Source: a virus. From it: DNA of 46,825 nt. Location: IMG/VR virus record IMGVR_UViG_3300049002_000004, positions 1 to 46,825 of that record. One strand, written 5' to 3'. Each line of letters begins with the position of its first letter. Position 1 is the stretch's first letter. Positions 13,774-46,825 of this stretch are shown here, piece by piece. The position numbers and the translations under genes were made by a program. The notes below the pieces were generated by a model. That model searched no databases, was not told the origin of the DNA, and was given only the letters and a program-made list of their open reading frames with translations.

Positions 13774-16700
13774 TGGCCGGCAACCTTCTCGACGACGAGA
13801 TCGAGCAGCTGCCGCCGGCGCCGGCGAAACTGCCCGCGACCACGCCGGAACCGGCCGATGCGCTCGAGCGGTCCTACGACGACATTTTCAGGTCGCAGCA
13901 GACCGCGCGCACGATCCCGCTGCGCCAGGCGATCACCAAGGCGACCGAGACGTCGCCCGATCGCGCGGCTGAGGCCTCACGCATTGGGCAGCAGCTGGGC
14001 ATTCCGCCGGCGCTGGTGCTGCGTAACTTCGACGGCTACAAGAAACGCGCGGCCCTGTCGTCGACGCCGTTCTCGGAGATGGCCAGCGAGACGCCGGCCC
14101 TGGCGAAGTGGGCCGAGGATCCGGCCAACGCGGCGATCGCGCACGACGATCTCGAGCAGCTGGGATCGCTCGAGTGGTTGGTGACCGCGCCCCAACGCGC
14201 GTTTGCGCAGGGCATCAACCAAGTGCAGTTTGCGATGCTGCGCAGCCGATCGATCTTCAACGAGCTGACACAGGAGGAGCACGATCAGCTCGAAAGCTAC
14301 CGGCACGGCATGGAGGTCGGCGGCGAGCTGGGCGCGCGCAATTCCTACTTCCGCAAGGCGGTGACCGGCGCGGCGCAGCAGATCCCCAACATCATCGGCA
14401 GTGTGGCCGCCGGCGTGCGGCCCGCCATCCTGGCCGGCACAACGGCCGGCACGGCGGGCTTTCTGGCAGGGCCCGGCGCGATCGCCACGGTGCCGGCCCT
14501 GACGGCCGCCGGCGCGACGGCCGGCATGCTCACCGGCGGCGCTATGTTCGGCTTCCACCTGGAGGCCGGCAACGCCTACGACGAGTATCTGCAATTCCGT
14601 GACGAGTTCGGCCAGCCGCTCGACCCGCGGATCGCGAAGGCGGCAGCCGTGGCCACGGGCGCCATGAATGCGGGCCTCGAGGCGTTCGGCCTGGCTGCCC
14701 TGGCCAAGACGATCCCCGGCGTCGGTGCCGGCGTGAAGGCGCTCGAGGGCGCCCTGACGCGCGACGCGGTGAAGGCGGCGCTGCGCAACCCGACGATCCG
14801 CGGCGCGCTGCTCGAGGCAGTCGGCAGCTACGCGGAGGGCCTGACGTCCGAGACGGCCGTCGAAGTCGCCCAGCGCGCGGTGACCATCCTGTCGGGCGAG
14901 CTGGCCAAGCACGCCGGCGCCGCGGCAGTGACAACCGGCAAGGTCAAGGGCCAGCTCGAGGCGGGCAACGTCAACCTCTACGCGCAGCCGGCCGTGCAAA
15001 ACGAGGACGGCACGATCTCAACCGTCGACAGCATGAGCGTGAACCTGGACGGGCGCGAGGTGCTGATCCCGACCGTGACGCCAGATGGCCGTCATTTGGC
15101 GCCAGACGCGGCCGTCGCCGAGTATACGAAGACCGGCCGCCACCTGGGCGTATTCGAGTCGCCGGAGGCTGCCACGGCCTACGCGCAGCAGCTGCACGCC
15201 GATTACGCGGCCGGCAAGTTCAACAGCGCGTCCCAATTTCGGACATCTGGCGACATCGCGACCGATCTGCTGCAGGAGGGCACCGGCGCACTCTCGAGCT
15301 TCGCGCTGACCATTGCCCCCGGCCCGGTGCTGCACGTCGCCCAGCAGGCACGCCTGGCGCGCCAGGCTTCGGCTAACGTGGCGTTCTTCCAAGCCCTGGG
15401 CGAAGGGGTCACCAACAGCAAGACCGCCCAGCGGGCCCCAGAGGCCGCGCAGGCGTTCCTGGCCGACGCGACCAAGAACGGCCCGCTCAGCCACGTCTAC
15501 GCCCCCGTCGACAGCTGGGCCGAATACTGGCAGGGCCAGGGCCTGGATCCCGCGGAGATGGCCAGCCAGGTCACCGGCAGCCAGACCGCCTGGGAGAACG
15601 CCATCAGGACCGGCGAGGATCTGGCCATCCCGACCAGCGCCTACGCGGTCAAGCTGGCCGGCACCGACCACAACTCATTTTTCGCCAACGAGCTGCGCCT
15701 GGCCCCCGACGCCATGAACGTGCGCGAAGCCGAGGCGTTCCAAGCAGAACAGGCGACCGCTACCGAGCAGCAGGAACAGGAGAGCCCGGCCGCGCAGGTA
15801 AGGGTCGCGGTGCAGCAGCAGCTCGAGACTGCTGGCGTGCCGGCGGCGACGGCGCAGCAATACGCCACGCTCTACGAGTCGGCCTTTGGCAGCCTGGCCG
15901 AGCGCGCCGGCCTCGATCCCCTTGAGCTGTTCCGGCAGTATGGCCTGCAGGTGGAACGGCCGGCGCTCGAGCAGCCGGCGATCGGAGACACGGCAGCCGC
16001 CGGAACGAAAGCCGAGCAGCCGACTGCGGAGTTTTTGGCGCATGGACCGGACGGGCCACTCTACAACATCGTCGGCGGCGACCAGGACCGATCGACGGTC
16101 AGCAAGGCGAAGCTCGAGGAGCTGGGGATCGCCATCCCCGCGACGCCGGAATTGCCGGCCGGCGGCGAGCGGCGAGGGCTGAGCGGCGACGAGCTGCGCC
16201 GGCGTGCCCTGCACGCGCGAGCGATGGCCAGCGGCCCTGCGGCCGAAGCGGCGATCGTGGCCGTCAATGATCCGCGCGAGCAACCAGTCGGCGAGGCCCC
16301 GACGTCGACGGCGCCGGCGATCGACCCCGACGCCGAGATCCCCGTCATGGAGGGCGCCTTTGCTGCCGCGCAAGCGATGCGCGCCGAGGATCCGCAGATC
16401 GAGGCAAAGGCGAAGGCCCTGGCCGACCGTGCGCGTATGTCCCGTCGACCGGCGCCCCCGCGGGCCCGCGATGTCATTGTTGACAGAAACTCACCCGAAG
16501 CGCAGACTGAGGTTCCTGATGGCTCCGAGCTTGAGGCGAGTCGACGAGCTGATCGCGCACGGCGCGCCGCCGAGGGTGGCGTTTCAGCAAGCTATCCGCG
16601 AGACAGAGAGCAGCGCGCCGCCACGCCAGGCGCCAAGTCCAAACTCCGACGCGAGAGCCCCAAAGAAGCCCTAGCCCGTCGCGACCAGCATTACGTCGAC

Positions 16701-19700
16701 GTCTTTGCTGATCTCCTGACGGCCGCACGCGAGATCGATCCCAACATCGATCCCGAGGTGCTGCGCGCCGAGTTCCAGTTCCGCGTGAATGCGCTCGAGG
16801 AGCGGCAGCAGGCGTATGCCGAGAGCGGACACGACCCGCTCGATCTGCTGCGCACGATCGCAAAACTCGGAGGCATCGGCGAGACGGCCGAGGACCGCGG
16901 CGAGCTGCAGACACTCACGCAGGGGCTGAAGTTCGGGCGCGTCCACGGGCTGCAGGTGTTTGCGAAGGCCGGCAAGGGCCCGCAGGCATTCGTGCGCGCC
17001 GGCCGATCGATCAACAGCATGCTCGAGGTGCTGCAGGAAGATGCGCGATTCGCCTGGATCGAGAACGTGAACATGCTGGTGGACGCGATCGACGACGCGA
17101 TCCGCCATCCGGTGCCGACACAGAACGTCTACCCCGGCACCGACGAACTGCGCACCGACGTCGGCATCAACCGCGGCGACGCCTGGTGGCAGGATCCCTG
17201 GAGGCCGGCCAATCTGCTCGAGGACAACGACGCGATCAGCGACCAGGCGCTCGAGGAAGCCGGCGGCGATACGTCGTTCAACGTCGACGAGTTCAACCAA
17301 TCGCTGTTTGACAGCTTGGGCGATGAAGCGAAGCCGGCCGCTGCGCAGCAAGCCGACACCGTGCGCGACATCGTGACGGCGCATATGCGATCGGTCGGCA
17401 AGGTCGACCCTGACGTGCTCGCGATGGTGCTGCAGGGCATCACGCGCGAAGCACACCAACGGAGCGGCACACGCCCGAGCGTCGCACCCCCGCGCGAAGT
17501 GGCGCACGCGATTGCCCGCGAGTGGGTGGCCAAGCAGACCGGCGTCGACGTGCTCGACACCGGCGAGGCGCAGCCGCGGCTTCCCGGTGCCGGGACCGTG
17601 CGCGATCAGAACGTCGAGACGCCCGAATTTGAGGCGCCGTTCAGTCTCACCGCGGAAACCGCGAAGCCGGCGAAGGGCAAACAGACCACGCTGTTCCAAG
17701 GGCTGACCGACGCGCAGCTCGACACCTGGACGGCCGCGACGCTGGCGAAGTTCCCCGGCCTCGATCGACTCGAGATCGAGCGTGACAGCTTCGGCCGGCT
17801 GCGTCTGGGCTGGATCATTGTCGACCGCGACGCGCAGAACCAAGGGATCGGCACCAAGGTGATCCGCGAGCTGACGCGCCTGGCCGATGAGAACGGCGAG
17901 CGCCTGGTGCTGACGCCGGCGGAAGGCGAGCGCGACCGCCTGGTCGCGTATTACCGGCGCTTCGGCTTTGTCGAAAACGCCCGCGGCGACATGGTGCGCG
18001 AGCCGACGATCGGCATTACCGATCTGGGGCAACCGTTTTTCCACGGCAGCCCCCACAACGTCGACAAGTTCTCGAGCGCGAAGGTCGGCACCGGCCAGGG
18101 CGCGGCGACCTATGGCCACGGTCTGTATTTCGCGGAAAACCGCGACGTCGCGACGCAGTATCACAAGGAGCTGGCCGAGCCCGCGGAAGTGCTGACGATT
18201 CACCTGGGCAGCATGCGCTGGGATCCGACCGGCCCGACGTCGCGCTACAGCCGCAACGCCCACAAGAGCGACGTCGAGAACGTGCGCGCCGCGCTATTCG
18301 AGGATCTGCTGTCGGACACCGCGGCGCTGCGCGACGTCGGCGTCGCCGGCTTTCGCAAGCATGTGCTCGCGCTGCTCGACGAGAAGATCGCCGACTACAC
18401 GAGCGAAGGATCCGCGGAGATGGCGACGGCCGCGGCCACGCTGCGCAAGGAACTGGCGCAGACCGGAGCGCTCGAGCTGAAGCTCGCCGATCAGCCCGGC
18501 GGCGTCTACCAGGTGGAGATCCCCGACGAGCACATCGATCGCATGCTCGATTGGGACGCGCCGATCAATAAGCAGCCGGCGGCCGTGCAGCAGCTGGTGC
18601 GCGAGGAGATGCAGACGCTGGGCTATCTGCGTCCTGGCGAGAACGGCCCGCGGCAACTGACGGCAGCGTTCAAAGCCTACGCGATGGAACACGGCGGCAT
18701 GCTGGACGGGCCAACCGGCAGCCTGGCGCATTCGATCATCGTCGCCGGCGAGGAAAAGCGACTCAGCGCGGATCTGGTCGCGCAGCGCAAGGCGATCGAC
18801 GATCGCTATCCGGCCATCCGTGATTACGGCACGCGCACCGGGCCCGGCAGCCTGGCAGCGGCGCGATTCAGCGGGCCCGAGTCGAAGGCCGATTTTTCCG
18901 AGTGGATGCGCCTAACCAGCGCGATCGAAAAGACGAAGGACGAAGCCAACAAGGCGGCGAGCGAGAAGCTGCTGGCCCTGGGCGTGCCAGGGATCCGCTA
19001 CCTCGATCAGCTCTCGAGGAGCGGCGAGGCGAAACGCAAGACCCGCAATGTCGTCGTGTTCGACGACGCGATCATCGAGCTGACGCACAAGGATGGATCG
19101 CCGGTGTCGGCGAAGGAGCGTAAGGAGTTCCTGCAGACCGACGAGACGCCAGGCGGCGGCAGCGTCGACGCCGGCCGTCGTGGCTCGATTCGGTTCGGCG
19201 CCGATCGGCAATTTCAGATCAACCTATTCGAGCGCGCCGATCTGTCGACGTTCCTGCACGAAAGCGGGCATTTCTTTCTCGAGGTGCTGACCGACCTGGC
19301 TGCCCGCGGCGACGCCAACCCGCGCATCCTGACCGACTACGAGACGCTGCGCGCCTGGCTGTTCCCAGACGGCGACACCGGCCAGCCGATCGAGCGCGCG
19401 CAGCATGAGCAATTCGCCCGCGGCTTCGAGGCCTACCTGATGGAAGGCCAGGCGCCGAGCGTCGCGCTGCGCGAGTCGTTCGCCCACTTCCGCGCCTGGC
19501 TGATCGGCATCTACAAGACGCTGATCGGGCTAAAGGTCGATCTGACGCCAGAGGTGCGCGGTGTGTTCGACCGCCTGGTCGCCAGCGACCGCGCGATCTT
19601 CGAGGCCGAGCAGCAGGGCCAAGTCGCCCCGATGTTTTTGACGGCCGCCATGGCCGGCATGAACGAGTCGGAGTTCAGCCTCTACAAGTCGACCGTGGCC

Positions 19701-22700
19701 ACGGCCTCGAGGACGGAGCGCGAAAAGCTCGATCAGAAGCTGCTGGCCGACGTGCAGCGCGCGCAGACGGCCGCGTATCGCGAGCAGCGCGCCGACGTGC
19801 AGCAGAAAGTAACCGCGGAGTTCCACGAGCGGCGAGAGTATCGCGCGATCGCGGCGATGCAGCGCGGGACCAACCCAGACGGATCCCCGCTGATCGAGGG
19901 CCTGACCACCAAGCCGATGAAGCTGTCGCGCGAGCTGATCGTCGAGCGGTTCGGCGAGGACCGACTGCGCACGCTGCCGCGGCCGTTCGTCTACACGCGC
20001 GCCGGCGGGCTGGATCCCAACTTTGTCGCCGAGTCGTTTGGCTTCTCGAGCGGCGACGAGCTGCTGAAGTCGATCGCGGCAGTCACCCCGCTGCGCCAGG
20101 CCATCGAGCAGGAAACCGAGCGCCGCATGCTGGCCGAGCACGGCAGTCTGCTGCTGGACGGATCGCTGCCGATGCAGGCGCAAGCGGCGCTCGCGAACGA
20201 GGACCGCGACCAGGTGATCCGCGCCGAGCTGCGCGCCCTGGGCCGACTGCGTGCGCTGGCGTCGCCGTTCGTGAAGGCCGGCAACGAGCGGCTGTCAGCG
20301 GAGAAGAAAGAGCGCGCCTACGAGGTGCGCTGGCTCGAGGCCGAGACAAAGCTGCGCGTCGCGATCGCGGAGCAGGCCGGCCAGGTGGAGATCGATCGTC
20401 TGGCGCGAGAGGTGCGGAGCTTGCGCGCGAAGGCGCGAGGGGGCGCCGCGACCATCCGCGCCGCGGTGCCCCCCGATCAGCTGTTGCGCCAGATGGCCAG
20501 CGAGCGCATCGCGCGCATGACCGTGCGCGACCTGAAGCCGGCGACGTTCTGGTCGGCCTCGAGACGGGCGGCGCAGAAAGCGCTCGACTCCGCGGCGCGC
20601 CAGGAGTTCGACGAGGCGATCACCGCCAAGCAGCAGGAGCTGATGAATCTGGCGCTGTTCCGCGAAGCCAACCAGGTGCTCGAGGACGTCGCCGCGCGAG
20701 TGAAGCGCGCGACCGCGCTGGCCACCGGGCCCGCTCGAGCGCGCATCGGGCTGGCCGGCGCTACCTACCTCGAGCAAGTCGACGGCATCCTGGACCGCTA
20801 CAGCTTTGCGAAGATCCCCGCCAAGCAAGTCGAGAAAATCGCGAGTCTGCGGAAATGGGCCGAAGCGATGGAGGCACAGGGCGTGCCCGTCGATCTGCCG
20901 GAGGAGCTGCTCGACGACGCGCGACGCATCCACTACAGCGAGCTGTCGGTCGAGGAGCTGATCGGGATCACCGATGGCCTGGCGCAGATCGTCCACCTGG
21001 CCGGCCTGAAGAATCGGCTGCTGAAGGCCAAGACCGAGCGCGAGTATGCGGCCGTGCGCGACGGCCTGGTGACATCGATCACCGACAACACGAAGGCGAC
21101 GCCGATCCCGCGGGAGTTCCGCGCCGGCGAGGCGCCGCAGAAATACCGCTGGGTGTCGGGCTGGTTTGCGTCGCACACGAAGATCGCGACGTTCGTGCAT
21201 GCGTTCGACGGCTACGTCGACGGCGGCCCGATGTGGGAAGCGATCATGCGGCCGATCAACGAGGCGGCCGACGCCGAGCAGACCCAGAAGCGCCAGGCCG
21301 GCAAGACGCTGGCCGGCATCCTCGAGCAGCACTACCCTGGCCGGCAGCTGGGCACGCTGAACGAGAAGGTGTTCATTCCGGCGATCAACGACAGCCTCTC
21401 GAAAGAGGGGCGCCTGGCGATCGCGCTGAATTGGGGCAACCAGACCAGCCGCGACCGCGTGCTGGCCGACACGAATCTGCGCGTGAACGAGCAGCAGGTG
21501 CGCGCGATCCTCGAGACGCTGGACGAGCGCGACTGGCGTTTCGTGCAGGCGACCTGGGATTACATCAACACGTTCTGGCCGGCGATCGCGGAGAAGCAGC
21601 AGCGGCTGACCGGCCTGGCCCCGGTGAAGGTCGAGGCCCTGCCGGTGAGCACCAGGTTCGGCGAGTTCGCCGGCGGCTACTACCCGCTGGCGAGCGACAG
21701 CCGCAAGTCGATCCGCGCCGGCCAGCATGAGGCCGCCAACGAGGCGAAGCTGGCGACCGGCGCCGCCTACGTGCGATCGACGACGAAGCGCGGGCACACG
21801 ATCGAGCGTCAGAAGAATGTCAGCATTCCGCTGCGGCTCGATCTGGGCGTCGCCTTCCAGCACGTCGAGCAGGTGATCCACGATCTGACGCATCACGAGA
21901 TGCTGATCGACGTCACGCGCCTGATGCGCGACGGCAAGGTGTCGCAGGCGATTCTCGAGCACGGCGGCGACATCGTTTACAAACAGTTCACGACGGCGCT
22001 GCAGGACATCGCGATCGGCTCGACGCCGGCCGCACACAATATGCTCGAGAGCGCCGCCAACTACATCAGGAGCGGCACGCAGCTGTCGATGATGGGCTGG
22101 AACCTCTGGACGGCCCTACAGCAGCCGCTGGGCATGTTCAACGGCGCCGCGGAAGTCGGGCCCGTGTGGGTGGCTCGAGGCCTGAAGCGCTGGCTGCGCG
22201 ACGCGGCGAGCTTCGAGAGCACGGCCGCCTGGATCGCCAGCGTGTCGCCGATGATGCGCGAGCGCGTGACGACGGCGACGCAGGATCTAACCGATGTCCG
22301 CGCGCAGCTGGCCCGGCCCGGCGGTTGGTTCGACAACCTGGTGCGCACGGTGAGCGCCGATCACCTGACGCAGCAGACGATCCTGGACGGCTACTTGTGG
22401 CACATCGGCATCGCGCAGCGCGTCGCCGACATTCCGACCTGGCTGGGCGCCTACGAGAAATACATGGCCGCCGGCGAGGTCGAAGATCGCGCGATCGCCC
22501 TGGCCGACCAGGCCGTGATCAACTCGCAAGGATCGGGCAGTGTGAAAGACCTGGCCGCGGTGCAGCGCGGCGGCCCGATCGCGCGGCTGTTCATGACGTT
22601 CTACAGCTACGGCAATACCGTCTTCAACAGCAACCGGCGCGAGATCGGAAAGATCGCGCACGACCCGAGCACGGTGCTGACCGGCCTGGGGCACCTGGCG

Positions 22701-23120
22701 CTGATCAACGTGTTTCCCGCGATGGGCGTCGTGACGCTGGCGCGCCTGGTCGGCCGCGGCGACGGCGACGATGATGCCTGGTTTGAGGACGTCGGGCGCG
22801 AGCTGCTGGCCGGCACGTTGAACACGATGGTGCTGGTGCGCGAGCTGGCCGGCCTGGCGCAAGAGCACGGCCGCGGCTACGCGGGCCCGGCCGGCACGCG
22901 GATTTTCGAGATGGTGTCGACGGCCGTGCAGCAGGTGAAGCAAGGAGAGGCCGACGAAGCGCTGGCCAAAGCGCTGAATCAGGTGGCCGGCGTGATCTTC
23001 CGGTATCCGGCTGCACAAGTGCAGCGCACGGTCGACGGCTACGTCGCGCTGCAGGAAGGGCGCACGGCCAACCCGCTCGCGCTGCTGATGGGCGGGCCCC
23101 GAAAGAGAGCAGCACAATGA
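13773..23120 (+). CDS. Giant polyvalent ejected protein: GNAT + ADP-ribosyltransferase-like + HExxH zincin + LPD tail
   Basis: 3115 aa, GTG start overlapping the previous stop. Visible modules, in order: a hydrophobic Gly/Ala segment (~203-265); an inserted module beginning GNVNLYAQPAVQNEDG (~395-480); a helical region; a GNAT acetyltransferase core (~1325-1410, WIIVDRDAQ then QGIGTK at 1357); and an ART-PolyVal-like region (~1423-1770, FHGSPH and YGHGLYF, closing with GIRYLDQLSR and VVFDDAIIEL). A zincin-like motif HESGH follows at 1829-1833 with likely ligand E1886 in ARGFEAYLMEG. After that come long coiled coils, then a C-terminal LPD-type region (~2640-3115). By position it is the gp16-equivalent protein delivered with DNA. 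Its enzymes presumably act in the infected cell early, which is an inference. Confidence 0.8.
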   Translation: MAGNLLDDEIEQLPPAPAKLPATTPEPADALERSYDDIFRSQQTARTIPLRQAITKATETSPDRAAEASRIGQQLGIPPALVLRNFDGYKKRAALSSTPFSEMASETPALAKWAEDPANAAIAHDDLEQLGSLEWLVTAPQRAFAQGINQVQFAMLRSRSIFNELTQEEHDQLESYRHGMEVGGELGARNSYFRKAVTGAAQQIPNIIGSVAAGVRPAILAGTTAGTAGFLAGPGAIATVPALTAAGATAGMLTGGAMFGFHLEAGNAYDEYLQFRDEFGQPLDPRIAKAAAVATGAMNAGLEAFGLAALAKTIPGVGAGVKALEGALTRDAVKAALRNPTIRGALLEAVGSYAEGLTSETAVEVAQRAVTILSGELAKHAGAAAVTTGKVKGQLEAGNVNLYAQPAVQNEDGTISTVDSMSVNLDGREVLIPTVTPDGRHLAPDAAVAEYTKTGRHLGVFESPEAATAYAQQLHADYAAGKFNSASQFRTSGDIATDLLQEGTGALSSFALTIAPGPVLHVAQQARLARQASANVAFFQALGEGVTNSKTAQRAPEAAQAFLADATKNGPLSHVYAPVDSWAEYWQGQGLDPAEMASQVTGSQTAWENAIRTGEDLAIPTSAYAVKLAGTDHNSFFANELRLAPDAMNVREAEAFQAEQATATEQQEQESPAAQVRVAVQQQLETAGVPAATAQQYATLYESAFGSLAERAGLDPLELFRQYGLQVERPALEQPAIGDTAAAGTKAEQPTAEFLAHGPDGPLYNIVGGDQDRSTVSKAKLEELGIAIPATPELPAGGERRGLSGDELRRRALHARAMASGPAAEAAIVAVNDPREQPVGEAPTSTAPAIDPDAEIPVMEGAFAAAQAMRAEDPQIEAKAKALADRARMSRRPAPPRARDVIVDRNSPEAQTEVPDGSELEASRRADRARRAAEGGVSASYPRDREQRAATPGAKSKLRRESPKEALARRDQHYVDVFADLLTAAREIDPNIDPEVLRAEFQFRVNALEERQQAYAESGHDPLDLLRTIAKLGGIGETAEDRGELQTLTQGLKFGRVHGLQVFAKAGKGPQAFVRAGRSINSMLEVLQEDARFAWIENVNMLVDAIDDAIRHPVPTQNVYPGTDELRTDVGINRGDAWWQDPWRPANLLEDNDAISDQALEEAGGDTSFNVDEFNQSLFDSLGDEAKPAAAQQADTVRDIVTAHMRSVGKVDPDVLAMVLQGITREAHQRSGTRPSVAPPREVAHAIAREWVAKQTGVDVLDTGEAQPRLPGAGTVRDQNVETPEFEAPFSLTAETAKPAKGKQTTLFQGLTDAQLDTWTAATLAKFPGLDRLEIERDSFGRLRLGWIIVDRDAQNQGIGTKVIRELTRLADENGERLVLTPAEGERDRLVAYYRRFGFVENARGDMVREPTIGITDLGQPFFHGSPHNVDKFSSAKVGTGQGAATYGHGLYFAENRDVATQYHKELAEPAEVLTIHLGSMRWDPTGPTSRYSRNAHKSDVENVRAALFEDLLSDTAALRDVGVAGFRKHVLALLDEKIADYTSEGSAEMATAAATLRKELAQTGALELKLADQPGGVYQVEIPDEHIDRMLDWDAPINKQPAAVQQLVREEMQTLGYLRPGENGPRQLTAAFKAYAMEHGGMLDGPTGSLAHSIIVAGEEKRLSADLVAQRKAIDDRYPAIRDYGTRTGPGSLAAARFSGPESKADFSEWMRLTSAIEKTKDEANKAASEKLLALGVPGIRYLDQLSRSGEAKRKTRNVVVFDDAIIELTHKDGSPVSAKERKEFLQTDETPGGGSVDAGRRGSIRFGADRQFQINLFERADLSTFLHESGHFFLEVLTDLAARGDANPRILTDYETLRAWLFPDGDTGQPIERAQHEQFARGFEAYLMEGQAPSVALRESFAHFRAWLIGIYKTLIGLKVDLTPEVRGVFDRLVASDRAIFEAEQQGQVAPMFLTAAMAGMNESEFSLYKSTVATASRTEREKLDQKLLADVQRAQTAAYREQRADVQQKVTAEFHERREYRAIAAMQRGTNPDGSPLIEGLTTKPMKLSRELIVERFGEDRLRTLPRPFVYTRAGGLDPNFVAESFGFSSGDELLKSIAAVTPLRQAIEQETERRMLAEHGSLLLDGSLPMQAQAALANEDRDQVIRAELRALGRLRALASPFVKAGNERLSAEKKERAYEVRWLEAETKLRVAIAEQAGQVEIDRLAREVRSLRAKARGGAATIRAAVPPDQLLRQMASERIARMTVRDLKPATFWSASRRAAQKALDSAARQEFDEAITAKQQELMNLALFREANQVLEDVAARVKRATALATGPARARIGLAGATYLEQVDGILDRYSFAKIPAKQVEKIASLRKWAEAMEAQGVPVDLPEELLDDARRIHYSELSVEELIGITDGLAQIVHLAGLKNRLLKAKTEREYAAVRDGLVTSITDNTKATPIPREFRAGEAPQKYRWVSGWFASHTKIATFVHAFDGYVDGGPMWEAIMRPINEAADAEQTQKRQAGKTLAGILEQHYPGRQLGTLNEKVFIPAINDSLSKEGRLAIALNWGNQTSRDRVLADTNLRVNEQQVRAILETLDERDWRFVQATWDYINTFWPAIAEKQQRLTGLAPVKVEALPVSTRFGEFAGGYYPLASDSRKSIRAGQHEAANEAKLATGAAYVRSTTKRGHTIERQKNVSIPLRLDLGVAFQHVEQVIHDLTHHEMLIDVTRLMRDGKVSQAILEHGGDIVYKQFTTALQDIAIGSTPAAHNMLESAANYIRSGTQLSMMGWNLWTALQQPLGMFNGAAEVGPVWVARGLKRWLRDAASFESTAAWIASVSPMMRERVTTATQDLTDVRAQLARPGGWFDNLVRTVSADHLTQQTILDGYLWHIGIAQRVADIPTWLGAYEKYMAAGEVEDRAIALADQAVINSQGSGSVKDLAAVQRGGPIARLFMTFYSYGNTVFNSNRREIGKIAHDPSTVLTGLGHLALINVFPAMGVVTLARLVGRGDGDDDAWFEDVGRELLAGTLNTMVLVRELAGLAQEHGRGYAGPAGTRIFEMVSTAVQQVKQGEADEALAKALNQVAGVIFRYPAAQVQRTVDGYVALQEGRTANPLALLMGGPRKRAAQ
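16480..16508 (+). promoter_or_regulatory. Promoter-like TTGACA-17-CAGACT inside the giant gene
   Basis: TTGACA (16480-16485), a 17-nt spacer and CAGACT (16503-16508). The first 11 bases, TTGACAGAAAC, are identical to the intergenic promoter at 29530, which ends TAGACT with the same spacing. It lies in a low-conservation linker of the giant protein, just ahead of a possible nested ORF (16519-16674). It may be a chance match or a moved copy of the motif. Confidence 0.3.
16519..16674 (+). CDS. Possible nested ORF overprinted on the giant gene
   Basis: 51 codons in the frame one base ahead of the host gene, with ATG preceded by TGAGG at 16508-16512. The sequence MAPSLRRVDELIAHGAPPRV then AFQQAIRETES reads like a normal helical protein and uses GC-ending codons. 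The host frame over the same bases has many weaker third positions (agt, cga, gct, gat, gca). The upstream part of this open frame (before ~16471) is arginine-rich shadow sequence. It could be a small nested gene, an ancient insertion, or a local frameshift in the host gene. Confidence 0.25.
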   Translation: MAPSLRRVDELIAHGAPPRVAFQQAIRETESSAPPRQAPSPNSDARAPKKP

Positions 23121-26702: not shown

Positions 26703-27737
26703 ATGAAAAGACCGACGAAGAAGAAGGCGGCAGCGCGCCGTCAGGCCACGCCGTCGACGTCGACCGCCCTGGCGCGCCGGCAGACGCTGGCGATCGAGGT
26801 CGTGGATCCTGGTCGTCGGCTGCCGGAGATTCTGCCGGCGCCGCGGCATGAGGGCATCATCGGCAGCGAGGCGAGCACCGGCGAGCTGGGGCTGGTCGAG
26901 GTCAAGCTGACGCCGGCCGAGGAGGCCGTGCTCGCGCGCCCCGTCAACGATCTGCGCGTCCTGGTGAAGCCGACCGGCCAGCCGTATCTGTCGCACCCCG
27001 AATACACGCGATGGTTCAACGAGGCATTCGGGCGCCTGGGCTGGGCGCTGGTGCAGAAGGCGCAGCCGATCCGGCAAGTCGACGGCAACAAGGTGCAGAT
27101 CATTTGCCCCTACGTGCTCTACATCCACCGGCAGCCGGCGGCCTTCGCCTGGGGCGAGCAGGAATACTGGAGCAACAACAAGGAGCAGACTTACGGCGAT
27201 GCGCTCGAGGCGACCGTCGCCAGCGCACTGCGCCGCTGCGCGAAGCGCCTGGGCGTCGGGCTCGAGCTGTGGGACAAGCGATGGTTGCGCGCCTGGCTCG
27301 ACATCCACACCGTCAAGGTGAAGCTCGAGCCGAAGCGCGGCGATCGCGAGGAGCAGAGCGAGGCGAAATTCGCCTGGCGCCTGAAGACGGATCCGCCGTT
27401 CTGGAACGAAGCCGGCATCGTGAAGGGCAGCAGCAAGCCGCCAACGGGCTCGAGCGCGTCGACGCAGCCGACCGAGCGCCGGCAGAAGCCCCGCGCCGGC
27501 AGCAACCCCGACGACGACAAATCGATCACTGAGGAGCAGCGCGCCCGGCTGTTCAAGATCGCGGCGCGCGTCGGCCGCGGCAAGCGCGAGCTGCAGGCCT
27601 GGCTGGCGATCGCCTACGACGTCACGGAGACGACGAAGATCAAACGCAAAGACTACGACGCGATCGTGTCCGCGATCGAATCACCGAACCCGTTGCCCAA
27701 GGGCCCGGCGACGCGCGAGCCAGGCGAGGAAGGATGA
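26703..27737 (+). CDS. Single-strand annealing protein, Mgm101/Rad52-like
   Basis: 344 aa with GAAAGG upstream (26689-26694). Residues ~96-205 carry the Mgm101/Rad52-like core: LSHPEYTRWFNEAFGRLGWA, QIICPYVLYIHRQPAAFAWG, YGDALEATVASALRRCAKRL and GVGLELWDKRW. Residues ~275-330 form the small helical C-terminal module often attached to phage recombinases (ITEEQRARLFKIAARVG to YDAIVSAI). Between them is a disordered basic linker. Such proteins anneal ssDNA during recombination-dependent replication and repair. A PD-(D/E)XK exonuclease gene overlaps downstream, the usual partner. Confidence 0.75.
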   Translation: MKRPTKKKAAARRQATPSTSTALARRQTLAIEVVDPGRRLPEILPAPRHEGIIGSEASTGELGLVEVKLTPAEEAVLARPVNDLRVLVKPTGQPYLSHPEYTRWFNEAFGRLGWALVQKAQPIRQVDGNKVQIICPYVLYIHRQPAAFAWGEQEYWSNNKEQTYGDALEATVASALRRCAKRLGVGLELWDKRWLRAWLDIHTVKVKLEPKRGDREEQSEAKFAWRLKTDPPFWNEAGIVKGSSKPPTGSSASTQPTERRQKPRAGSNPDDDKSITEEQRARLFKIAARVGRGKRELQAWLAIAYDVTETTKIKRKDYDAIVSAIESPNPLPKGPATREPGEEG

Positions 27738-31046: not shown

Positions 31047-31312
31047 TGCGGAACAAAGCGATGCAGCGCAAGCTCGAGACGGGCGAGGCGATCGACGTCG
31101 AGCGCGTCGGCACACCTGTGCCTGGCGTGCCCGGCGTGTGGCAGCTGCCGGAGTTCGTCGACGGCGCCGACTACTGCGTCGGCAGCTCCGAGAGCTGGAT
31201 CTGGTCGATCGGCCGGCGTAATGGGATCGACGAGGACGCCGGCCGGATCGTGGCGTCGACCGATCAGCGCTTCTACATGAACCCGTCGTATGAATGTCTG
31301 TGGTTGCGATGA
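31046..31312 (+). CDS. Hypothetical protein upstream of helicase
   Basis: 88 aa from the ATG at 31046, chosen over earlier in-frame ATGs because of the AAAGGAG ribosome site and the 1-nt overlap with the previous stop. The sequence is MRNKAMQRKLETGEAIDVER, then VGTPVPGVPGVWQLPEF and SWIWSIGRRNG. No family is recognised. A compact mixed fold is likely, with no membrane segment. Translational coupling to the helicase (ATGA) suggests co-regulation with replication genes. Confidence 0.6.
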   Translation: MRNKAMQRKLETGEAIDVERVGTPVPGVPGVWQLPEFVDGADYCVGSSESWIWSIGRRNGIDEDAGRIVASTDQRFYMNPSYECLWLR

Positions 31313-33210
31313 AGGCGCCAACACTACGCCCCTATCAGCTCGACGCCGGCAAGGCGCTCGAGGCGTGCTTTTTCGACCAGGACCGCAATCGCATTCTGAT
31401 CAAGAAGCCGACCGGCACCGGGAAAACGGTGTGGTTTGCATCGCTGCTGAAAGAGTTCGATCGACTGCGCGCCTGGCTCGAGACCCTGAAGGCCGAGAAG
31501 CGGCACAAGGGCGCGATCATGCTGGTGATCGCGCATCGCGAGGAACTGCTCGACCAGGCGGCCGAGAAGATCCAGCGGCAGAACCCCGGCCTGATGGTGT
31601 CTATCGAGCAGGGCGACCGACACGCCAACAGCTACAGCGACGTCGTGATCGCCAGCATCCAGACGCTGGCCGCGATGAAGTTTCGCCGGCTGAAGCGGCT
31701 GCTGCAGCGGCACACGTTCCGCCTGGTGATCGTCGACGAGGCACACCACGCCGCGGCAGCCAGCTATCGCACGGCGCTGGTGCATCTGGGCTTTCTGCCG
31801 GCGGCCGACGCCAGCGAGTCGAGCGAGATCGAGGCGATCACGCACGACGACATTGCCGTGATGACCGACGCGCTGCAGGGCTGGGACGCGATCGCGCCGC
31901 GCGACCGGCTGCTGGTCGGAGTCACCGCGACGCCGAACCGCAGCGACGCGATCGGCCTGGGCTGCGTGTTCCAGACCATCGGCTACAGCTACGGCCTGAA
32001 GGAAGCGATCGACGACGGGTATCTGGTGCCGATCACGCCCTGGGTGATCGAGACGTCGACGAACCTGGATAGCGTGCGCACGTCCCACGGGGATTTCAAC
32101 CAGCGCGAGCTGGCCGATGCTGTCAACAACGACCGGCGCAACAAGCTGGCCGTGAACGGCTGGCACGAACTAGCGATCGGCATGTCGACGATCGCCTTTA
32201 CCGTCGACGTCGCGCACGCGCACGCGCTGGCCGAGGAGTTCACGCGCGCCGGCGTCGTGGCTCGAGCGGTCAGCGGCGAGACGCACAAGGAGGAGCGCCG
32301 GCAGATCCTGAAGGATTACAGCCGCGGAGAGGTGCAGGTGATCACAAACTGCATGGTGCTCACGGAGGGCACCGATCTGCCGCTGACCGAGTGCATTCTC
32401 CATTGCAAGCCGACGAAAAGCGCGACGCTCTACGAGCAGATGACCGGCCGCGGGCTGCGCGTGCATCCTGACGACCCGGCGGGCCCGGCCAGGCTCGAGA
32501 TGCTGCAGCGGGCGAATCCGCGCATGGTCAAGCGGCAGTGTGTCGTGATCGACGTCGTGGACATAGCGCGCCGCCACAGCCTGCAGGCGGCCCCGACGCT
32601 CTACGGGCTGCCGCCTGGCATCAACGCGAACGGCAAGCCGCTCGACGAGGTGCTGGAATGGCTCGAGAAGATGCGCGAGGAGCTGCCGGGCTTCAACGTC
32701 GAGGAGCAGCTGCAGAATGGCATGCTGACGCTCGAGCAGCTGAACGCCAAGGCCAGCACGTTCGACATCTGGAAAGTGCAGAGCCTGGGCGCATTCGGCA
32801 ACGGGCGAGCGCTCGACTGGATGAAGACGGGCGACGACCTGTATCAGCTGCGCTACCCGTGGCAGGACGGCAACGAGATCCTGAAGGTCCAGCGTGACAT
32901 GCTGGGGCACTTCGAGGTCACCCTGACCCTTCGCCCTGCCGACAACGGCCCGACGCGCCAGCGCACGCTGGTGACCGGCCTGGAGACGTCCGACCAGGCG
33001 GCCGGCATGGCCGAGCAATTCGTGTTTCGGGAACGGCGGGCGGTGACGAAGATCGCCGACAAGGATGCCCCATGGAAGGCGCGGCCGGCGAGCCCGAAGC
33101 AGACGGCCGCCCTGCAGCGCATGCGCGTGCCGTTCAAGCCGGGGATCACCATGGGCGAGGCGTCGAAGCTGCTGGATCTGGCCATCGCGCGCCGGCCAGC
33201 GCGACGCTAG
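31309..33210 (+). CDS. SF2 DEAH-box helicase
   Basis: 633 aa from ATG 31309, which overlaps the previous stop (an in-frame ATG at 31294 would add five residues). Helicase motifs are intact: Q-like LRPYQLDAGKAL, Walker A PTGTGKT (34-40), Ia VIAHREEL, DEAH (143-146), GVTATPNR (III), TNCMVLTEGTDLPL (V) and QMTGRGLR (VI). This is the UvsW/SSL2-like superfamily 2 helicase type that phages use for replication fork or recombination intermediate processing. The C-terminal ~200 residues are a less conserved region. A 490-nt non-coding stretch follows, so it ends this operon. Confidence 0.88.
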   Translation: MKAPTLRPYQLDAGKALEACFFDQDRNRILIKKPTGTGKTVWFASLLKEFDRLRAWLETLKAEKRHKGAIMLVIAHREELLDQAAEKIQRQNPGLMVSIEQGDRHANSYSDVVIASIQTLAAMKFRRLKRLLQRHTFRLVIVDEAHHAAAASYRTALVHLGFLPAADASESSEIEAITHDDIAVMTDALQGWDAIAPRDRLLVGVTATPNRSDAIGLGCVFQTIGYSYGLKEAIDDGYLVPITPWVIETSTNLDSVRTSHGDFNQRELADAVNNDRRNKLAVNGWHELAIGMSTIAFTVDVAHAHALAEEFTRAGVVARAVSGETHKEERRQILKDYSRGEVQVITNCMVLTEGTDLPLTECILHCKPTKSATLYEQMTGRGLRVHPDDPAGPARLEMLQRANPRMVKRQCVVIDVVDIARRHSLQAAPTLYGLPPGINANGKPLDEVLEWLEKMREELPGFNVEEQLQNGMLTLEQLNAKASTFDIWKVQSLGAFGNGRALDWMKTGDDLYQLRYPWQDGNEILKVQRDMLGHFEVTLTLRPADNGPTRQRTLVTGLETSDQAAGMAEQFVFRERRAVTKIADKDAPWKARPASPKQTAALQRMRVPFKPGITMGEASKLLDLAIARRPARR

Positions 33211-33284
33211 TGTGACCACCGCAGCGAATTACTACATTTTGGGGGTATCGCTGGCGAGAGCGCAGGGAGTATAAAACGGCTGGC

Positions 33285-33658
33285 CGGCGCAAGGGAGTTG
33301 ACCCCTAGCGCCGACCGACAAATCGCGCCCGTGAGTGCAGCACGGAGGCGTTCGCGGTCGCAATTCTAACCCGCCAAACCTCTCAACTCAATCGGATCCG
33401 CGTGTAGGGCCTGTGACGGTATGCAGACAGTGGGCAGGCCCTACTCGAAAGCCGGCGACCACGGGGAGTCGCGAAGCCGGCAGCGTGGGTGCGTGAGCAT
33501 CAGAGCGCGCGAATGGGCTGGTGCAGCCAGCTAAAAGTCTGATGCAGTTCGGCGCGCTGTCACGCGACCGGACCCTAGCGCGGGCGGGCTGATCCTGGGG
33601 GTCATTCACGACTGCGAAGGCACGCACGCCAAACTAGGGCGGTGCTTTGCCTTCACAC
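33285..33658 (+). ncRNA. Candidate structured RNA in a ~490-nt gene-free region
   Basis: The whole stretch 33211-33703 lacks a convincing gene (the longest + frame is 37 codons). Folding elements seen by eye: 33285-33313 (10 bp around one A/A mismatch), 33329-33345 (5 bp), 33404-33444 (10-bp perfect stem), 33451-33481 (9 bp with bulge), 33497-33558 (two competing pairings), 33571-33603 and 33616-33654. A TATAAA box (33270-33275) lies just before the first hairpin without a clear -35. It could be a regulatory RNA, a replication origin, or an RNA with a function not yet named. Confidence 0.4.
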
Positions 33659-33686
33659 GAACGAGCCGAAACCTGAAGGTCATTCA
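33600..33686 (+). repeat. Direct repeat pair GGTCATTCA
   Basis: GGTCATTCA occurs at 33600-33608 and 33678-33686, flanking the hairpin 33616-33654, just ahead of the helicase-loader and DnaB genes. Two short copies are too few to call an iteron array. The setting (gene-free, foldable, next to replication genes) makes an origin or protein-binding site possible. Confidence 0.3.
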
Positions 33687-33703
33687 TTTGAGAGAGGGGA
33701 TTT

Positions 33704-34165
33704 ATGGCTGACGATCTGGAATCGATCACTAGAAGACTAGGGCCACACATCAAAGACCTAGAAGCCACGATCGCGCGGGCCCATGAGCAGCTGCGCACGA
33801 TCAAGGAAATGCTGGCCGGCGGCAACCCGGTCGGCGTCGCGCGGGATCTGTTCGCCGACAGCTGGCGCGCCAAATACGGCGAGCCTTACACCTGGAGCTA
33901 CGCGAAGGACAGCGCGCAGATCAAGCGGCTGCTGCGCGCGATGGGCGCCGAGGATCTGCACGCGCGGATGCTGGCCTATCTGTCGACGTCGGAACCGTTC
34001 ATCGATCGCCAGCGGCATAGCTTCGGCCTGTTTGCGTCGACGGTGAACAGCTACAGCGCTCGAGGGCGACGCGAGGATGCGCCGCCGGCCGGCTGCCAGC
34101 ACACGCCGCGCTGCAGCAGCGACGTCGAGCACACCCGCAAACGCGGGACCGAGCGCCAGGCGTGA
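33704..34165 (+). CDS. Putative helicase loader / replication initiation protein
   Basis: 153 aa with AGAGAGGGG upstream (33691-33699). The first ~40 residues are a coiled coil (DLEATIARAHEQLRTIKEML). The conserved part is DSWRAKYGEPYTWSYAKDSA then QIKRLLRAMG, LHARMLAYLSTSEPFI and RQRHSFGLFASTVNSY. This pattern is known from phage proteins encoded beside replicative helicases. The C-terminus is disordered and basic. The GTGA overlap with dnaB suggests that the two act together, with this protein loading the helicase. That role is inferred from position. Confidence 0.65.
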   Translation: MADDLESITRRLGPHIKDLEATIARAHEQLRTIKEMLAGGNPVGVARDLFADSWRAKYGEPYTWSYAKDSAQIKRLLRAMGAEDLHARMLAYLSTSEPFIDRQRHSFGLFASTVNSYSARGRREDAPPAGCQHTPRCSSDVEHTRKRGTERQA

Positions 34166-35598
34166 GCGCAGCGCGTCGACGTCAGGCGCCGCCACCCGAC
34201 GAACCGCCCGACGAGTCGATCGTTCCACCGCACAGCCTCGAGGCCGAGCGGTCGACGCTGGGCGCGGCCATCATGGATCGCAAGGCCGCCGACTACGTGG
34301 TCGACCACCTGGTCGACGCCAGCTATTACCGCAAAGCGCACGCGCAAATATTCACGGCGATCCGAGCGCTGCGTCAGCGCAGCGAAGACATCGACCTGAT
34401 CACGCTGAAGACGGAGCTGGGCGCCCGGCTGGACGAATCCGGCGGGCCCGCCTACATCAGCGCGCTGATCGACGGCGTGCCGCGATCGTCCAACGTCGGG
34501 CACTACTGCGCGATTCTCGAGGATCTGCGGATGAAGCGGGCGCTGGTCGCCTTTGGTCGCGACGTGATCGAGCACGCGACATCGAACACGACGCAGGCGC
34601 CGGCGATCGTGCAGCTCGCCGACCGCCGGCTGCTCGAGCTGCAGAGCGGACACAGCCAAGGCCGCATGCAGAGCGTGCGCGATTCGCTGCCGGCCCTGGT
34701 CGACGACATCGAGCGCCGCATGCAGCACCCCGGCGAGCTGACCGGCCCGACGACGGGGTTTACTGCAGTAAATCGCGAGACGCTGGGCTGGCAAGCCGGC
34801 GACCTGATCATCGTGGCGGCCAGGCCGTCGATCGGCAAGACGACATTCGTGCTTAACTCCGCGGTCGCCGCGGCCACGGCCGGCAGCCGCGTCGCGATCT
34901 TTTCGCTCGAGATGCGCCGGCTGCAGCTGGAATACCGCATCATGAGCCAGCTGACCAGGATCCCCCTGACGCAGATCCTGGAAGGCCGCATCATGCAGGC
35001 CGACATGCCGCGGATGACGGAGGCGATCGCCGAGATCAGCGCGCTGCCGATCGAGATCGACGACACCACCGGCCGCACGTCGTGGGATATCCGCAGCGCG
35101 TGCCGGCGGATGAAAGCCGATGGCGGGCTCGACCTGGTGATCGTCGACTACGTGCAGCTGATGGCCGGCAGCCTCGAGAACCGCAACGCATCGCGCACTG
35201 AGCAGATGACCGACATCAGCCGGCGGATGAAGACGCTGGCTGACGAGGGCGGGTTCCCGGTGATCCTGCTGTCGCAGCTGTCGCGCGCCGGCGAAGGCCG
35301 CACGGACCCGCGGCCGAAGCTGTCAGACCTGAGAGAAAGCGGATCGCTCGAGCAGGACGCCGACATCGTGGCGTTCCTGCACCGGAAGCACCACCGCGAG
35401 GGCGGGCTAACCGAGTTCATTCTCGAGAAGCAACGCAACGGCCCGACCGGCACCGTGCTGCTGCACCTGGAGCGCGACACCACCACGTTCACCGACGCCG
35501 CGGCCGACGCCGTGATCCCCGAGCCGACCGCCGTCGAGAAGCAGGAGGCCCGCAAGGTCAAGCAGGTGAATTTCTTCAAGCAGAAAGCTCGACGTTGA
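34162..35598 (+). CDS. dnaB: Replicative DNA helicase DnaB
   Basis: 478 aa, GTG start overlapping the loader stop. The N-terminal helical domain PHSLEAERSTLGAAIMDRKA is followed by a linker and the RecA-like motor. Motor motifs include GFTAVNRETLGWQAGDLIIV, Walker A RPSIGKTT (221-228), FSLEM, Walker B DLVIVDYVQLM (324-334), LLSQLSR and LRESGSLEQDADIV. This is a full-length, apparently active hexameric 5'-3' helicase. No phage primase or DNA polymerase is found, so it probably recruits host DnaG and Pol III. Its stop lies within the -35 of the promoter-like element at 35595. Confidence 0.95.
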   Translation: MSAARRRQAPPPDEPPDESIVPPHSLEAERSTLGAAIMDRKAADYVVDHLVDASYYRKAHAQIFTAIRALRQRSEDIDLITLKTELGARLDESGGPAYISALIDGVPRSSNVGHYCAILEDLRMKRALVAFGRDVIEHATSNTTQAPAIVQLADRRLLELQSGHSQGRMQSVRDSLPALVDDIERRMQHPGELTGPTTGFTAVNRETLGWQAGDLIIVAARPSIGKTTFVLNSAVAAATAGSRVAIFSLEMRRLQLEYRIMSQLTRIPLTQILEGRIMQADMPRMTEAIAEISALPIEIDDTTGRTSWDIRSACRRMKADGGLDLVIVDYVQLMAGSLENRNASRTEQMTDISRRMKTLADEGGFPVILLSQLSRAGEGRTDPRPKLSDLRESGSLEQDADIVAFLHRKHHREGGLTEFILEKQRNGPTGTVLLHLERDTTTFTDAAADAVIPEPTAVEKQEARKVKQVNFFKQKARR

Positions 35599-41798: not shown

Positions 41799-41959
41799 TG
41801 AAAATGCGAAGTGCTCACCGTAGAGTAGCGGCCTGGTGCCGTGTGCAGTTCTGGCTGCGCACGGCCTGGCTGCGACATGGCCGGCAGTGTCGAGACTGCG
41901 ATCGGCCGCTACTCTGCAAATTGATCAAGGGCGGTAGTCGACCGTGTGACCGCCCATGA
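41798..41959 (+). CDS. 53-aa basic zinc-like peptide between terminase genes
   Basis: 53 codons that fill the apparent gap between the terminase genes exactly: the start overlaps the terS stop (TAATG) and the stop overlaps the large terminase start (ATGA). The peptide MKMRSAHRRVAAWCRVQFWL continues RTAWLRHGRQCRDCDRPLLC and ends with another Cys, giving a possible CxxC...C...C metal site in a very basic chain. The same bases also carry a perfect 12-bp inverted repeat (41822-41833 with 41904-41915). Confidence 0.6.
   Translation: MKMRSAHRRVAAWCRVQFWLRTAWLRHGRQCRDCDRPLLCKLIKGGSRPCDRP
41822..41915 (+). repeat. 12-bp inverted repeat enclosing an 11-bp hairpin
   Basis: AGAGTAGCGGCC (41822-41833) and GGCCGCTACTCT (41904-41915) are perfect complements. 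Between them GCCGTGTGCAG pairs with CTGCGCACGGC around TTCTGG, and GCAGT with ACTGC. As RNA this would be a branched fold; as DNA, a candidate recognition site near the packaging genes. It is inside a likely coding gene, so its role is uncertain. Confidence 0.45.
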
Positions 41960-44810: not shown

Positions 44811-45146
44811 ATGGCAGCATTCACCACCTTGGCATTGATCGGCCTGGCGGCCGGCGGCGCGTTCGCCGCGAGCAAGGTGCTGGCGAAGGGTCCGAGCGAT
44901 GCCGATCGCGAGAAGGCGACCGGCAAGCGCACGCCCAACGACGCGCCGGCGCCGACTCTCCTGGGCGGTGAAGCCCCGGCGCCCCCGAGCGCCGCGGTGA
45001 CTGGCTCGAGCGCCGCGGCAGCTGCCAAGCAGGCCGCCGACAAGCAACGCAAAAAGGCCACGGCTGGCGCCACACTGTTGACCGGCAAACCCGTCGCACG
45101 GTCGGCCGCCAACACCGGCGCCCCGCGTTCGCTGATCGGCTACTGA
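44811..45146 (+). CDS. Small Ala-rich protein upstream of portal
   Basis: 111 aa. It starts MAAFTTLALIGLAAGGAFAA, a short hydrophobic segment, then is Ala/Pro/Lys-rich and low complexity with ATAGATLLTGKPVARSAANT and LIGY at the end. Proteins of this shape are often encoded just before podovirus portals. The glycine/alanine helix and the TGAPRSLIGY tail may contact the portal or tail. The stop overlaps the portal start (TGATG). Function not established. Confidence 0.62.
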   Translation: MAAFTTLALIGLAAGGAFAASKVLAKGPSDADREKATGKRTPNDAPAPTLLGGEAPAPPSAAVTGSSAAAAAKQAADKQRKKATAGATLLTGKPVARSAANTGAPRSLIGY

Positions 45147-46825
45147 TGGCCGGCCCTGCCCGCTTCTACGACCTGGCCGACGTCCGCGGCCGAGTGCAAC
45201 GCTACGAGAACCTGAAGGCGGCGCTGTGGCTCGATCGCAATACGTTCGATGCACACTGGCGCGAGCTGGGCGAGAACCTGAGCCCGCGACGCACGCGGTT
45301 CTTTGCCGGCGACCGCAACCGCGGCGACAAGCGCAACCAGAACATCATCGACAGCACCGGCCGATTCGCCGCGCGCACGCTGCAGAGCGGACTGCATGCG
45401 GGCCTGACCTCGCCGGCGCGCCCATGGTTCAAGCTGACGACGCCGGATCCCGACCTGGCGAAATTCGAGCCCGTGAAGGAATGGCTGCACGAAGTCACCC
45501 AGCGCATGCTGGTCGTGATGCTGCAGACCAATCTCTACAACTGCCTGCCGATCGTCTACGGCGACATGGGGATCTTCGGCACGTCGGGCATGGCCGTCGT
45601 CGACGACGAGAAGGATCTATTTCGTTGCTACCCTTATCCGATCGGCAGCTTCGCGATCGGCCTGAGCAACCGCGGTGTCGCCACGACGTTCGCCCGCGAG
45701 TATCAGCTGTCGGTGCGCCAGGTGATTCAGGAGTTCGGCCTCGAGGCCAACGGCCGCGATATCAACTGGTCGCGGATCAGCGAGCGCACGCGCCGACTCT
45801 GGGAGAACGGCCACACCGAGCAGGCGATCGATGTGTGCTGGATCGTCACGCCCAACGACGGTTACGACGCCACGAAATTCGAGAGCAAGTTCAAACGCTG
45901 GGCGAGCTGCCACTACGAGCAGGGCGTCGGCGACGATAAGAAGTTTTTGAAGGAGGCCGGTTTCGACAGCTTCCCCGTCATGGCCCCGCGCTGGGATATC
46001 ACCGGCGAGGACACCTACGGCACCGACTGCCCTGGGATGACCGCGCTGGGCGACATCAAGCAGCTGCAGATCATGCAGCGGCGCAAAGGCCAGGCGATCA
46101 GCAAGATGATCGACCCGGCGCTGGTCGGCCCGACCGAGCTGCGCACGCAGCGCGTGAGCCTGCTGCCCGGCGACGTCACCTATCAGAACGTGCGCGAGGG
46201 GATGCAGGGCCTGAAGGCGATCCACGAGGTCGGCCTGAACCTGCAGCATCTGACCGGCGACATCGGCGAGGTGCAATACCGGATTCAGCGCGCGTTCTAC
46301 GAGGATCTGTTCCTGATGTTGGCGACGTCCGACCAGCAGCGCGGCGCGCAGCCGATCACGGCGCGCGAGGTCGAGGAGCGCCACGAGGAGAAGCTGATCG
46401 CGCTGGGCCCGGTGCTCGAGCGCACGAACGACGAGCTGCTGGATCCGCTGATCGATCGCGTCTACATGCTGATGGAGCGCGGCGGCATGATCCCGCCCCC
46501 GCCGCCGCAGCTCGAGGGCGTGCGCGTGAAGGCCGAATACACGTCGATCATGGCGCAGGCGCAAAAGCTGGTCGGCGTCGTGGGCCTCGATCGGTTCGTG
46601 CAGTCGGTCGGCGCGATGGCCGAACTGTTCCCCGACGTGCGTTACAAGGTGAACGTGTTTCAGATCGTCGACAACTACGGCGACGCGCTGGGAGTCGATC
46701 CGCGGGTGATCGTGTCCAACGAAGACGCGACACAGAGCCAGCAGGCGGCAGCGAAGGCTGCACAAGCGGCTCAAGACGCGGAGACGGCGCAGCGCACCGC
46801 GGCAGCGCTCAAGTCCGCAGCAACG
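45146..46825 (+). CDS. Head-tail connector (portal) protein, 3' end missing
   Basis: 560 codons visible with no stop before the window edge. It matches the podovirus head-tail connector family (PF12236 type): YENLKAALWLDRNTFDAHWR, NIIDSTGRFAARTLQSGLHA, LTSPARPWFKL, YGDMGIFGTSGMAVVDDEKD, PIGSFAIGLSNRG and the long C-terminal domain with GDIGEVQYRIQRAFYEDLFL and ITAREVEERHEEKLIALGPV. The last residues are Ala/Gln-rich, typical of the portal tail, so little should be missing. The twelve-fold ring is the DNA entry gate and tail docking site. Confidence 0.9.
   Translation, partial: MAGPARFYDLADVRGRVQRYENLKAALWLDRNTFDAHWRELGENLSPRRTRFFAGDRNRGDKRNQNIIDSTGRFAARTLQSGLHAGLTSPARPWFKLTTPDPDLAKFEPVKEWLHEVTQRMLVVMLQTNLYNCLPIVYGDMGIFGTSGMAVVDDEKDLFRCYPYPIGSFAIGLSNRGVATTFAREYQLSVRQVIQEFGLEANGRDINWSRISERTRRLWENGHTEQAIDVCWIVTPNDGYDATKFESKFKRWASCHYEQGVGDDKKFLKEAGFDSFPVMAPRWDITGEDTYGTDCPGMTALGDIKQLQIMQRRKGQAISKMIDPALVGPTELRTQRVSLLPGDVTYQNVREGMQGLKAIHEVGLNLQHLTGDIGEVQYRIQRAFYEDLFLMLATSDQQRGAQPITAREVEERHEEKLIALGPVLERTNDELLDPLIDRVYMLMERGGMIPPPPPQLEGVRVKAEYTSIMAQAQKLVGVVGLDRFVQSVGAMAELFPDVRYKVNVFQIVDNYGDALGVDPRVIVSNEDATQSQQAAAKAAQAAQDAETAQRTAAALKSAAT

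Follow-up and report, generated by a model that had tools for sequence, protein, structure and literature searches.

A structured RNA locus with a putative convergent antisense RNA gene beside dnaB in an uncultivated phage lineage

Introduction

The start of replication in phages without a recognisable initiator is often obscure. We analysed a 46.8-kb IMG/VR virus record (46,825 nucleotides; hereafter the window) of a soil phage that encodes a major capsid protein and a terminase and whose likely genes read rightwards. The window proteins scanned, many of them of unassigned function, include no recognised replication initiator. What, then, is the role of the ~490-nt gap (33211–33703) that lies beside the replication genes, bounded by a helicase stop codon (33210) and the next ATG (33704)? 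The genes flanking it are the following.

31294–33210, plus strand: superfamily 2 helicase gene, 5′ flank of the gap
33704–34165, plus strand: gene for a small helical protein with a Cys/His motif, 3′ flank of the gap
34162–35598, plus strand: DnaB replicative helicase gene, 3′ flank, overlapped by the small gene

ORF tiling bore out the original prediction that the genome is tightly packed with genes and that this gap is its longest, the runner-up measuring ~160 bp (41799–41955). Elsewhere in the window, we observed a 3115-aa polyvalent virion-type protein (13773–23120) with LPD22 and GNAT acetyltransferase domains and a weak ADP-ribosyltransferase match, and an Mgm101/Rad52-like recombinase (26703–27737) adjoining an exonuclease-like gene. 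We read the frame 45146–46825, where the sequence had looked empty, as a putative portal-like gene that is open-ended at the window's right end.

Results

Position of the gap in related phages

Protein and pattern searches yielded 17 other IMG/VR loci, making 18 with the window; a locus was accepted if the module lay 3′ of the helicase gene, or 5′ of the small gene where the contig does not show the helicase. The helicases were ~48–66% identical where measured. The 18 phage loci share the order helicase, module and small gene, mostly followed by dnaB, and several relatives have optional small genes before or after the module. Two loci (L226 and L229) were recovered through the RNA pattern alone, and their neighbours turned out to be the same. 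Another candidate, L211, was rejected as a chance pattern match inside apparent coding sequence. In the relative L054, alternating GAGCGAGCCA/GAGAGTACCA-type repeats with a ~19-nt period (~7150–7950) were seen directly after the related helicase gene.

Nothing useful resembling the region was found in isolate phages, and isolate phage and plasmid searches gave no match. Searches of three phyla, centred on an Acidobacteriota, a Gammaproteobacteria and a Gemmatimonadales genome (396, 398 and 249 genomes, respectively), did not find the small protein, and the covariance model R1 (described below) had no match in 297 genomes of the phylum centred on the Acidobacteriota genome; prophages or hosts were rejected within the scope of these searches. 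A scan of genome contigs with DnaB returned distant DnaB genes only and was set aside. The small protein (33704–34165), for which family and fold searches gave no match, has an invariant C-x-H-x-P-x-C motif (alignment A4) and is a possible candidate for a helicase loader.

The gap as a structured RNA locus

The gap had been interpreted as a structured RNA or an origin, not as coding sequence in decay. This view holds: covariation in homologues was positive for the plus-strand RNA of the gap, as detailed below, and a conserved protein frame was absent, with the two most similar gaps (L213 and L229) matching about equally in all six frames; gap alignments of relatives contain 1–2-nt indels. Rfam gave no family match for the gap at gathering cutoffs, GC skew had no turn there, and scans of the gap for tRNAs, terminators and iterons found none. 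The folding energy of the whole gap was not unusually stable (z = −1.33 on the plus strand and −2.76 on the minus strand), so hairpins alone are no proof of function. From the comparisons that follow, we judge it near certain that the gap is a structured RNA locus, consisting of two parts, segment A (33270–33368) and segment B (33401–33603).

Segment A contains a predicted antisense RNA gene

Segment A and its immediate upstream region have the following features.

33232–33241, no strand: palindromic operator-like box CTACATTTTG (CWANATNTWG), upstream of P+
33270–33275, plus strand: −10 box TATAAA of promoter-like site P+, whose −35 box is poor in the window
33363–33391, minus strand: promoter-like site P−, TTGAGT-17-TAGAAT
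33272–33356, minus strand: predicted ~85-nt antisense small RNA, its ends placed from promoter and terminator
33282–33316, minus strand: terminator-like hairpin of the antisense RNA; GUUUUAUA begins 4 nt later
33329–33345, minus strand: hairpin of the antisense RNA with a 5-bp stem and a 7-nt loop

P+ and P− converge and lie ~90 bp apart in the window. The relatives' P+ sites have a TTGATC/TTGACA-like −35 box, 16–18-nt spacing and a TATAAA-like −10 box, and score 7–11 on a 12-point scale whose background mode is 6. Their P− −10 box, TArAAT in 13/18, lies 88–113 bp downstream of the plus site on the opposite strand. The predicted antisense RNA would thus overlap the start of the plus transcript and be complementary to its first ~85 nt.

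Because MAFFT alignments of the whole segments lost register in both A and B, the stems of segment A, like those of hairpins B1, B4 and B5 in segment B, were listed by hand. The terminator-like hairpin has an 8–14-bp stem in 18/18 relatives, with 18 different sequences that pair fully; as the segment A stems were picked for pairing, the sole guard against that bias is the strand swap between genomes, which lowered pairing of the terminator stem to 59%. The 14 nt after the stem contain on average 6.1 T against 2.3 expected, the U-run being weak in several relatives, the window included. Four G-U cells on the minus strand would be mismatches on the plus strand, which assigns this hairpin to the minus strand. 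A hairpin originally placed at 33285–33313 is present, but as the inner part of this larger one. For the loop hairpin of the antisense RNA, short stems with 6–8-nt loops were found in 13 relatives with seven different stem sequences, and segment A folded with a mean z of −3.5 (plus) and −3.93 (minus) across 18 genomes versus −0.4 in controls. Together, these results predict a minus-strand RNA gene convergent with the plus transcript.

In 210 kb from 16 loci, the box CWANATNTWG has eight exact copies, every one of them −37 to −41 from the P+ −10 box; four more loci have it with one mismatch at that position. Rodionov and Gelfand are said to have given the same sequence in 2005 as the core consensus of NrdR, and the phage site has the form of an NrdR operator, a 16-bp palindrome with this core. 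NrdR needs a pair of boxes 15–16 bp apart (PMC12051234), whereas each locus had at most one exact site. Since the box is single and no ATP-cone protein was found in 12 of these phage records, NrdR regulation of the module was rejected.

Segment B encodes a covarying plus-strand RNA

Segment B, which starts 21–56 nt after the P− box in the phages, comprises five hairpins and was assigned to the plus strand on the basis of G-U cells.

33401–33447, plus strand: hairpin B1; nine relatives, nine different stems, 67/69 paired versus 41% strand-swapped
33451–33481, plus strand: hairpin B2 (GCCGGC/GCCGGC) with loop GACCACGGGGAGUCGCGAA; covariation, R1 and R3 matches
33497–33545, plus strand: hairpin B3 with outer stem GCAUCAGA/UCUGAUGC and an inner hairpin at ~33517–33531; covariation, R1 match
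33548–33572, plus strand: hairpin B4; eight relatives, eight different stems, 48/48 paired versus 49% swapped
33591–33603, plus strand: B5 counterpart (GAUCC UGG GGGUC) with a G-run, weak in the window

The B1, B4 and B5 stems were chosen because they pair, with the swap control as their only guard. For B2–B3, which have the conserved internal strands AGCGCGC and AAAAG in B3, all 19 pairs were 100% paired in five relatives, nine of them with double changes. Across ten genomes, 98.9% of cells were paired and 15/18 pairs had double changes; double-change cells numbered 43 versus 12 ± 2.8 in shuffles, and the covariation score was 0.738 versus 0.225 ± 0.037 in shuffled alignments. Sliding the partners by one column dropped pairing to ~33%. 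R1, trained on those five relatives with the window left out, matched the window at 33447–33545 (45.7 bits, E = 1.7e-5 over 734 kb), and also matched L052 (69 bits), L226 and L229 (85–87 bits) and, weakly, L221. Since the folding energy of B was no better than that of coding controls, the case for B rests on covariation and not on energy.

At least six hairpins had originally been claimed for the gap. Covariation supports those at 33404–33444 (B1) and 33451–33481 (B2) and the core (33497–33545, B3) of the one at 33497–33558; the hairpin at 33571–33603 overlaps B4/B5-like elements, and that at 33616–33654 folds in the window but has no alignable counterpart in the relatives. Overlooked at that stage were the predicted antisense gene, the two promoter-like sites with their operator-like box, and the plasmid-replicon parallel described below.

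The B core was undetected in 8/18 relatives, indicating that B evolves fast or is replaced. The segment in its place is clearly short in L047, L051 and L218; in L047 (8190–8360) and L218 (4608–4780), segment A is kept and a different, shorter segment replaces B. B represents a new RNA family that matches nothing in Rfam at threshold; it is carried by a lineage of uncultivated phages and follows a regulatory plan already known.

Segment B shares a plan with PAGEV RNAs of plasmids

A permissive Rfam scan matched PAGEV (RF03037), whose function is not described in the copy of Rfam used, over 33405–33549 (31.1 bits, E = 7.1e-6), short of its gathering cutoff of 61.1 bits. In the full-length alignment (model positions 1–185), B1, B2 and B3 corresponded in order to P1, P2 and P4, and the P3 stem between P2 and P4 was absent, its 40 model positions being reduced to 4 nt in the window. 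Other phage relatives had no match to the model, and with the sub-cutoff score in the window membership of PAGEV was rejected. Conversely, phage-built models reached only 7.5–9.5 bits (E = 0.45–2.7) on the PAGEV P2 and P4 positions, a suggestive result at most, and model R3 had no match on PAGEV plasmids; since the phage models match these plasmids weakly or not at all, we claim a shared plan, not PAGEV membership. Screening 274 genomes from the gammaproteobacterial class for PAGEV gave no match anywhere and carries no information.

PAGEV RNAs were located in small plasmids of Vibrio and Pseudomonas that carry no annotated rep gene. All four PAGEV plasmid loci examined have an intrinsic terminator and a minus-strand promoter-like site upstream, repeating the antisense layout of the phages, with a distance from P− to the RNA of 40–58 nt versus 21–56 nt in the phages. 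A CAATATCTTTGG box similar to the phage operator is present in the two Pseudomonas plasmids, and most members have a G-run 84–96 nt past the last shared stem. In pSDH-2, PAGEV (124 bits) coincides with the published CLV (ColE1-like Vibrionaceae) origin stretch, which is ColE1-like and in which convergent RNAI and RNAII act as in ColE1 (PMC5703827). PAGEV is probably the long preprimer RNA of this CLV plasmid group (L232–L236). In L235, a weak RsmY-like match (27 bits) was seen at 2706–2830, directly upstream of PAGEV and over the antisense RNA region.

Discussion

Observed for the module are synteny, conserved promoter-like sites, an operator-like box, the arrangement of an antisense gene and compensatory changes in the structure of B. 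We give a probability of about 0.5 to the reading that it is an RNAI/RNAII-type antisense-controlled RNA for phage replication. By analogy with ColE1 and CLV, P+, under the palindromic operator, would start a long structured RNA that runs through the first hairpin and B1–B5 towards the dnaB operon, and the convergent P− would make the ~85-nt antisense RNA, which would stop at the terminator-like hairpin a short way inside P+. By pairing with the nascent 5′ end, this short RNA would reduce how frequently the long RNA reaches its correct fold. Once folded, the long RNA, acting as a primer or R-loop, would initiate or license DNA synthesis at B5 or immediately beyond it, next to the helicase genes that this synthesis needs. 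We infer the transcription, antisense action and priming of the module, as well as an origin role for the gap. The reading is favoured by the outcome of a search of 8 of these phage records for a DNA polymerase I-type gene, which found none. Against it stand the low PAGEV score in the window and the lack of PAGEV matches in the other relatives, the weak or absent matches of phage models on PAGEV plasmids, the B core undetected in 8/18 relatives, the weak U-runs of several terminator-like hairpins, and the absence of a GC-skew turn and of iterons at the gap.

The main rival, which we consider less likely, is an antisense-controlled mRNA leader that sets only dnaB operon expression by attenuation or transcription interference, as in lambda pR/pO/OOP, with no priming. 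Lambda has the same layout, pO converging on pR beside replication genes and tuning replication (PMC3985674); the module likewise lies directly 5′ of the replication operon in the relatives, and the next start codon is ~180–620 nt from the P− box. However, the first gene 3′ of the module differs between relatives, so the B structure is not tied to one gene; the plus leader of the window has no terminator, and no lineage-specific pairing of leader and downstream start region was found (permutation p = 0.27). An anti-Shine-Dalgarno closing helix was rejected by the same comparison, as pairing of the CU-rich segment after P− with the downstream start region was no stronger than in swapped pairs.

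A free-standing, trans-acting ornate RNA in the manner of GOLLD or ROOL is an improbable reading of B. B is indeed phage-encoded, large and multi-hairpin, with strongly conserved loops (alignments A9 and A10), but Rfam GOLLD, ROOL and OLE were unmatched, no tRNA is nearby, no consistent 3′ terminator was seen after B, and B invariably stands just 5′ of the small gene and dnaB, accompanied by a predicted antisense gene that converges on it. Least tenable is a promoter/operator region alone, its hairpins a by-product of 63% GC, which would fit the unexceptional whole-gap folding (plus-strand z) but is refuted for B2–B3 by compensatory changes far exceeding the shuffled and slid controls and by the independent R1 match in the window.

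Going beyond the replication-RNA reading as such, we tentatively suggest that phages of this lineage initiate replication at an origin of the ColE1/CLV type, primed by RNA and under antisense control, using an RNA family new to Rfam and distantly related to PAGEV beside their own DnaB gene. If so, RNA-primed, antisense-limited initiation would be a phage strategy beyond mycobacteriophages, a testable mini-origin would be gained, and PAGEV would be accounted for as the long RNA at the ColE1-like origins of CLV plasmids.

Among known systems, lambda pR/pO/OOP likewise has a convergent promoter and a short RNA next to replication genes, but there is no homology, and lambda has the O initiator and no B-type structured RNA here. 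For the cluster A mycobacteriophages (Alma, LadyBird, RedRock), a noncoding RNA region is required for prophage replication in a phage that lacks repA (PMC7157519). These RNA-based origins, unlike the module, lie beside parABS and not dnaB, and are a precedent in kind with no detectable shared sequence; the R1 and PAGEV models had no match in the Alma ori region. In ColE1, RNAI and RNAII converge, as the two phage RNAs are predicted to do, with RNAI complementary to the start of the longer RNAII, and the RNA loops are 7 nt, as in the phage antisense hairpin. However, the phage has one loop hairpin instead of three and Rfam RNAI had no match in the window. In ColE1/CLV-type replicons the long RNA forms an R-loop, is cut by RNase H and primes DNA synthesis, steps that the phage RNA would share only by analogy. 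The module differs from CLV origins and PAGEV in being an element of a phage and not of a small rep-less plasmid, in adjoining helicase genes and in its loop sequences, but has in common with them the layout of a predicted short convergent antisense RNA, with a stem-loop and a terminator-like hairpin, upstream of a multi-hairpin plus-strand RNA.
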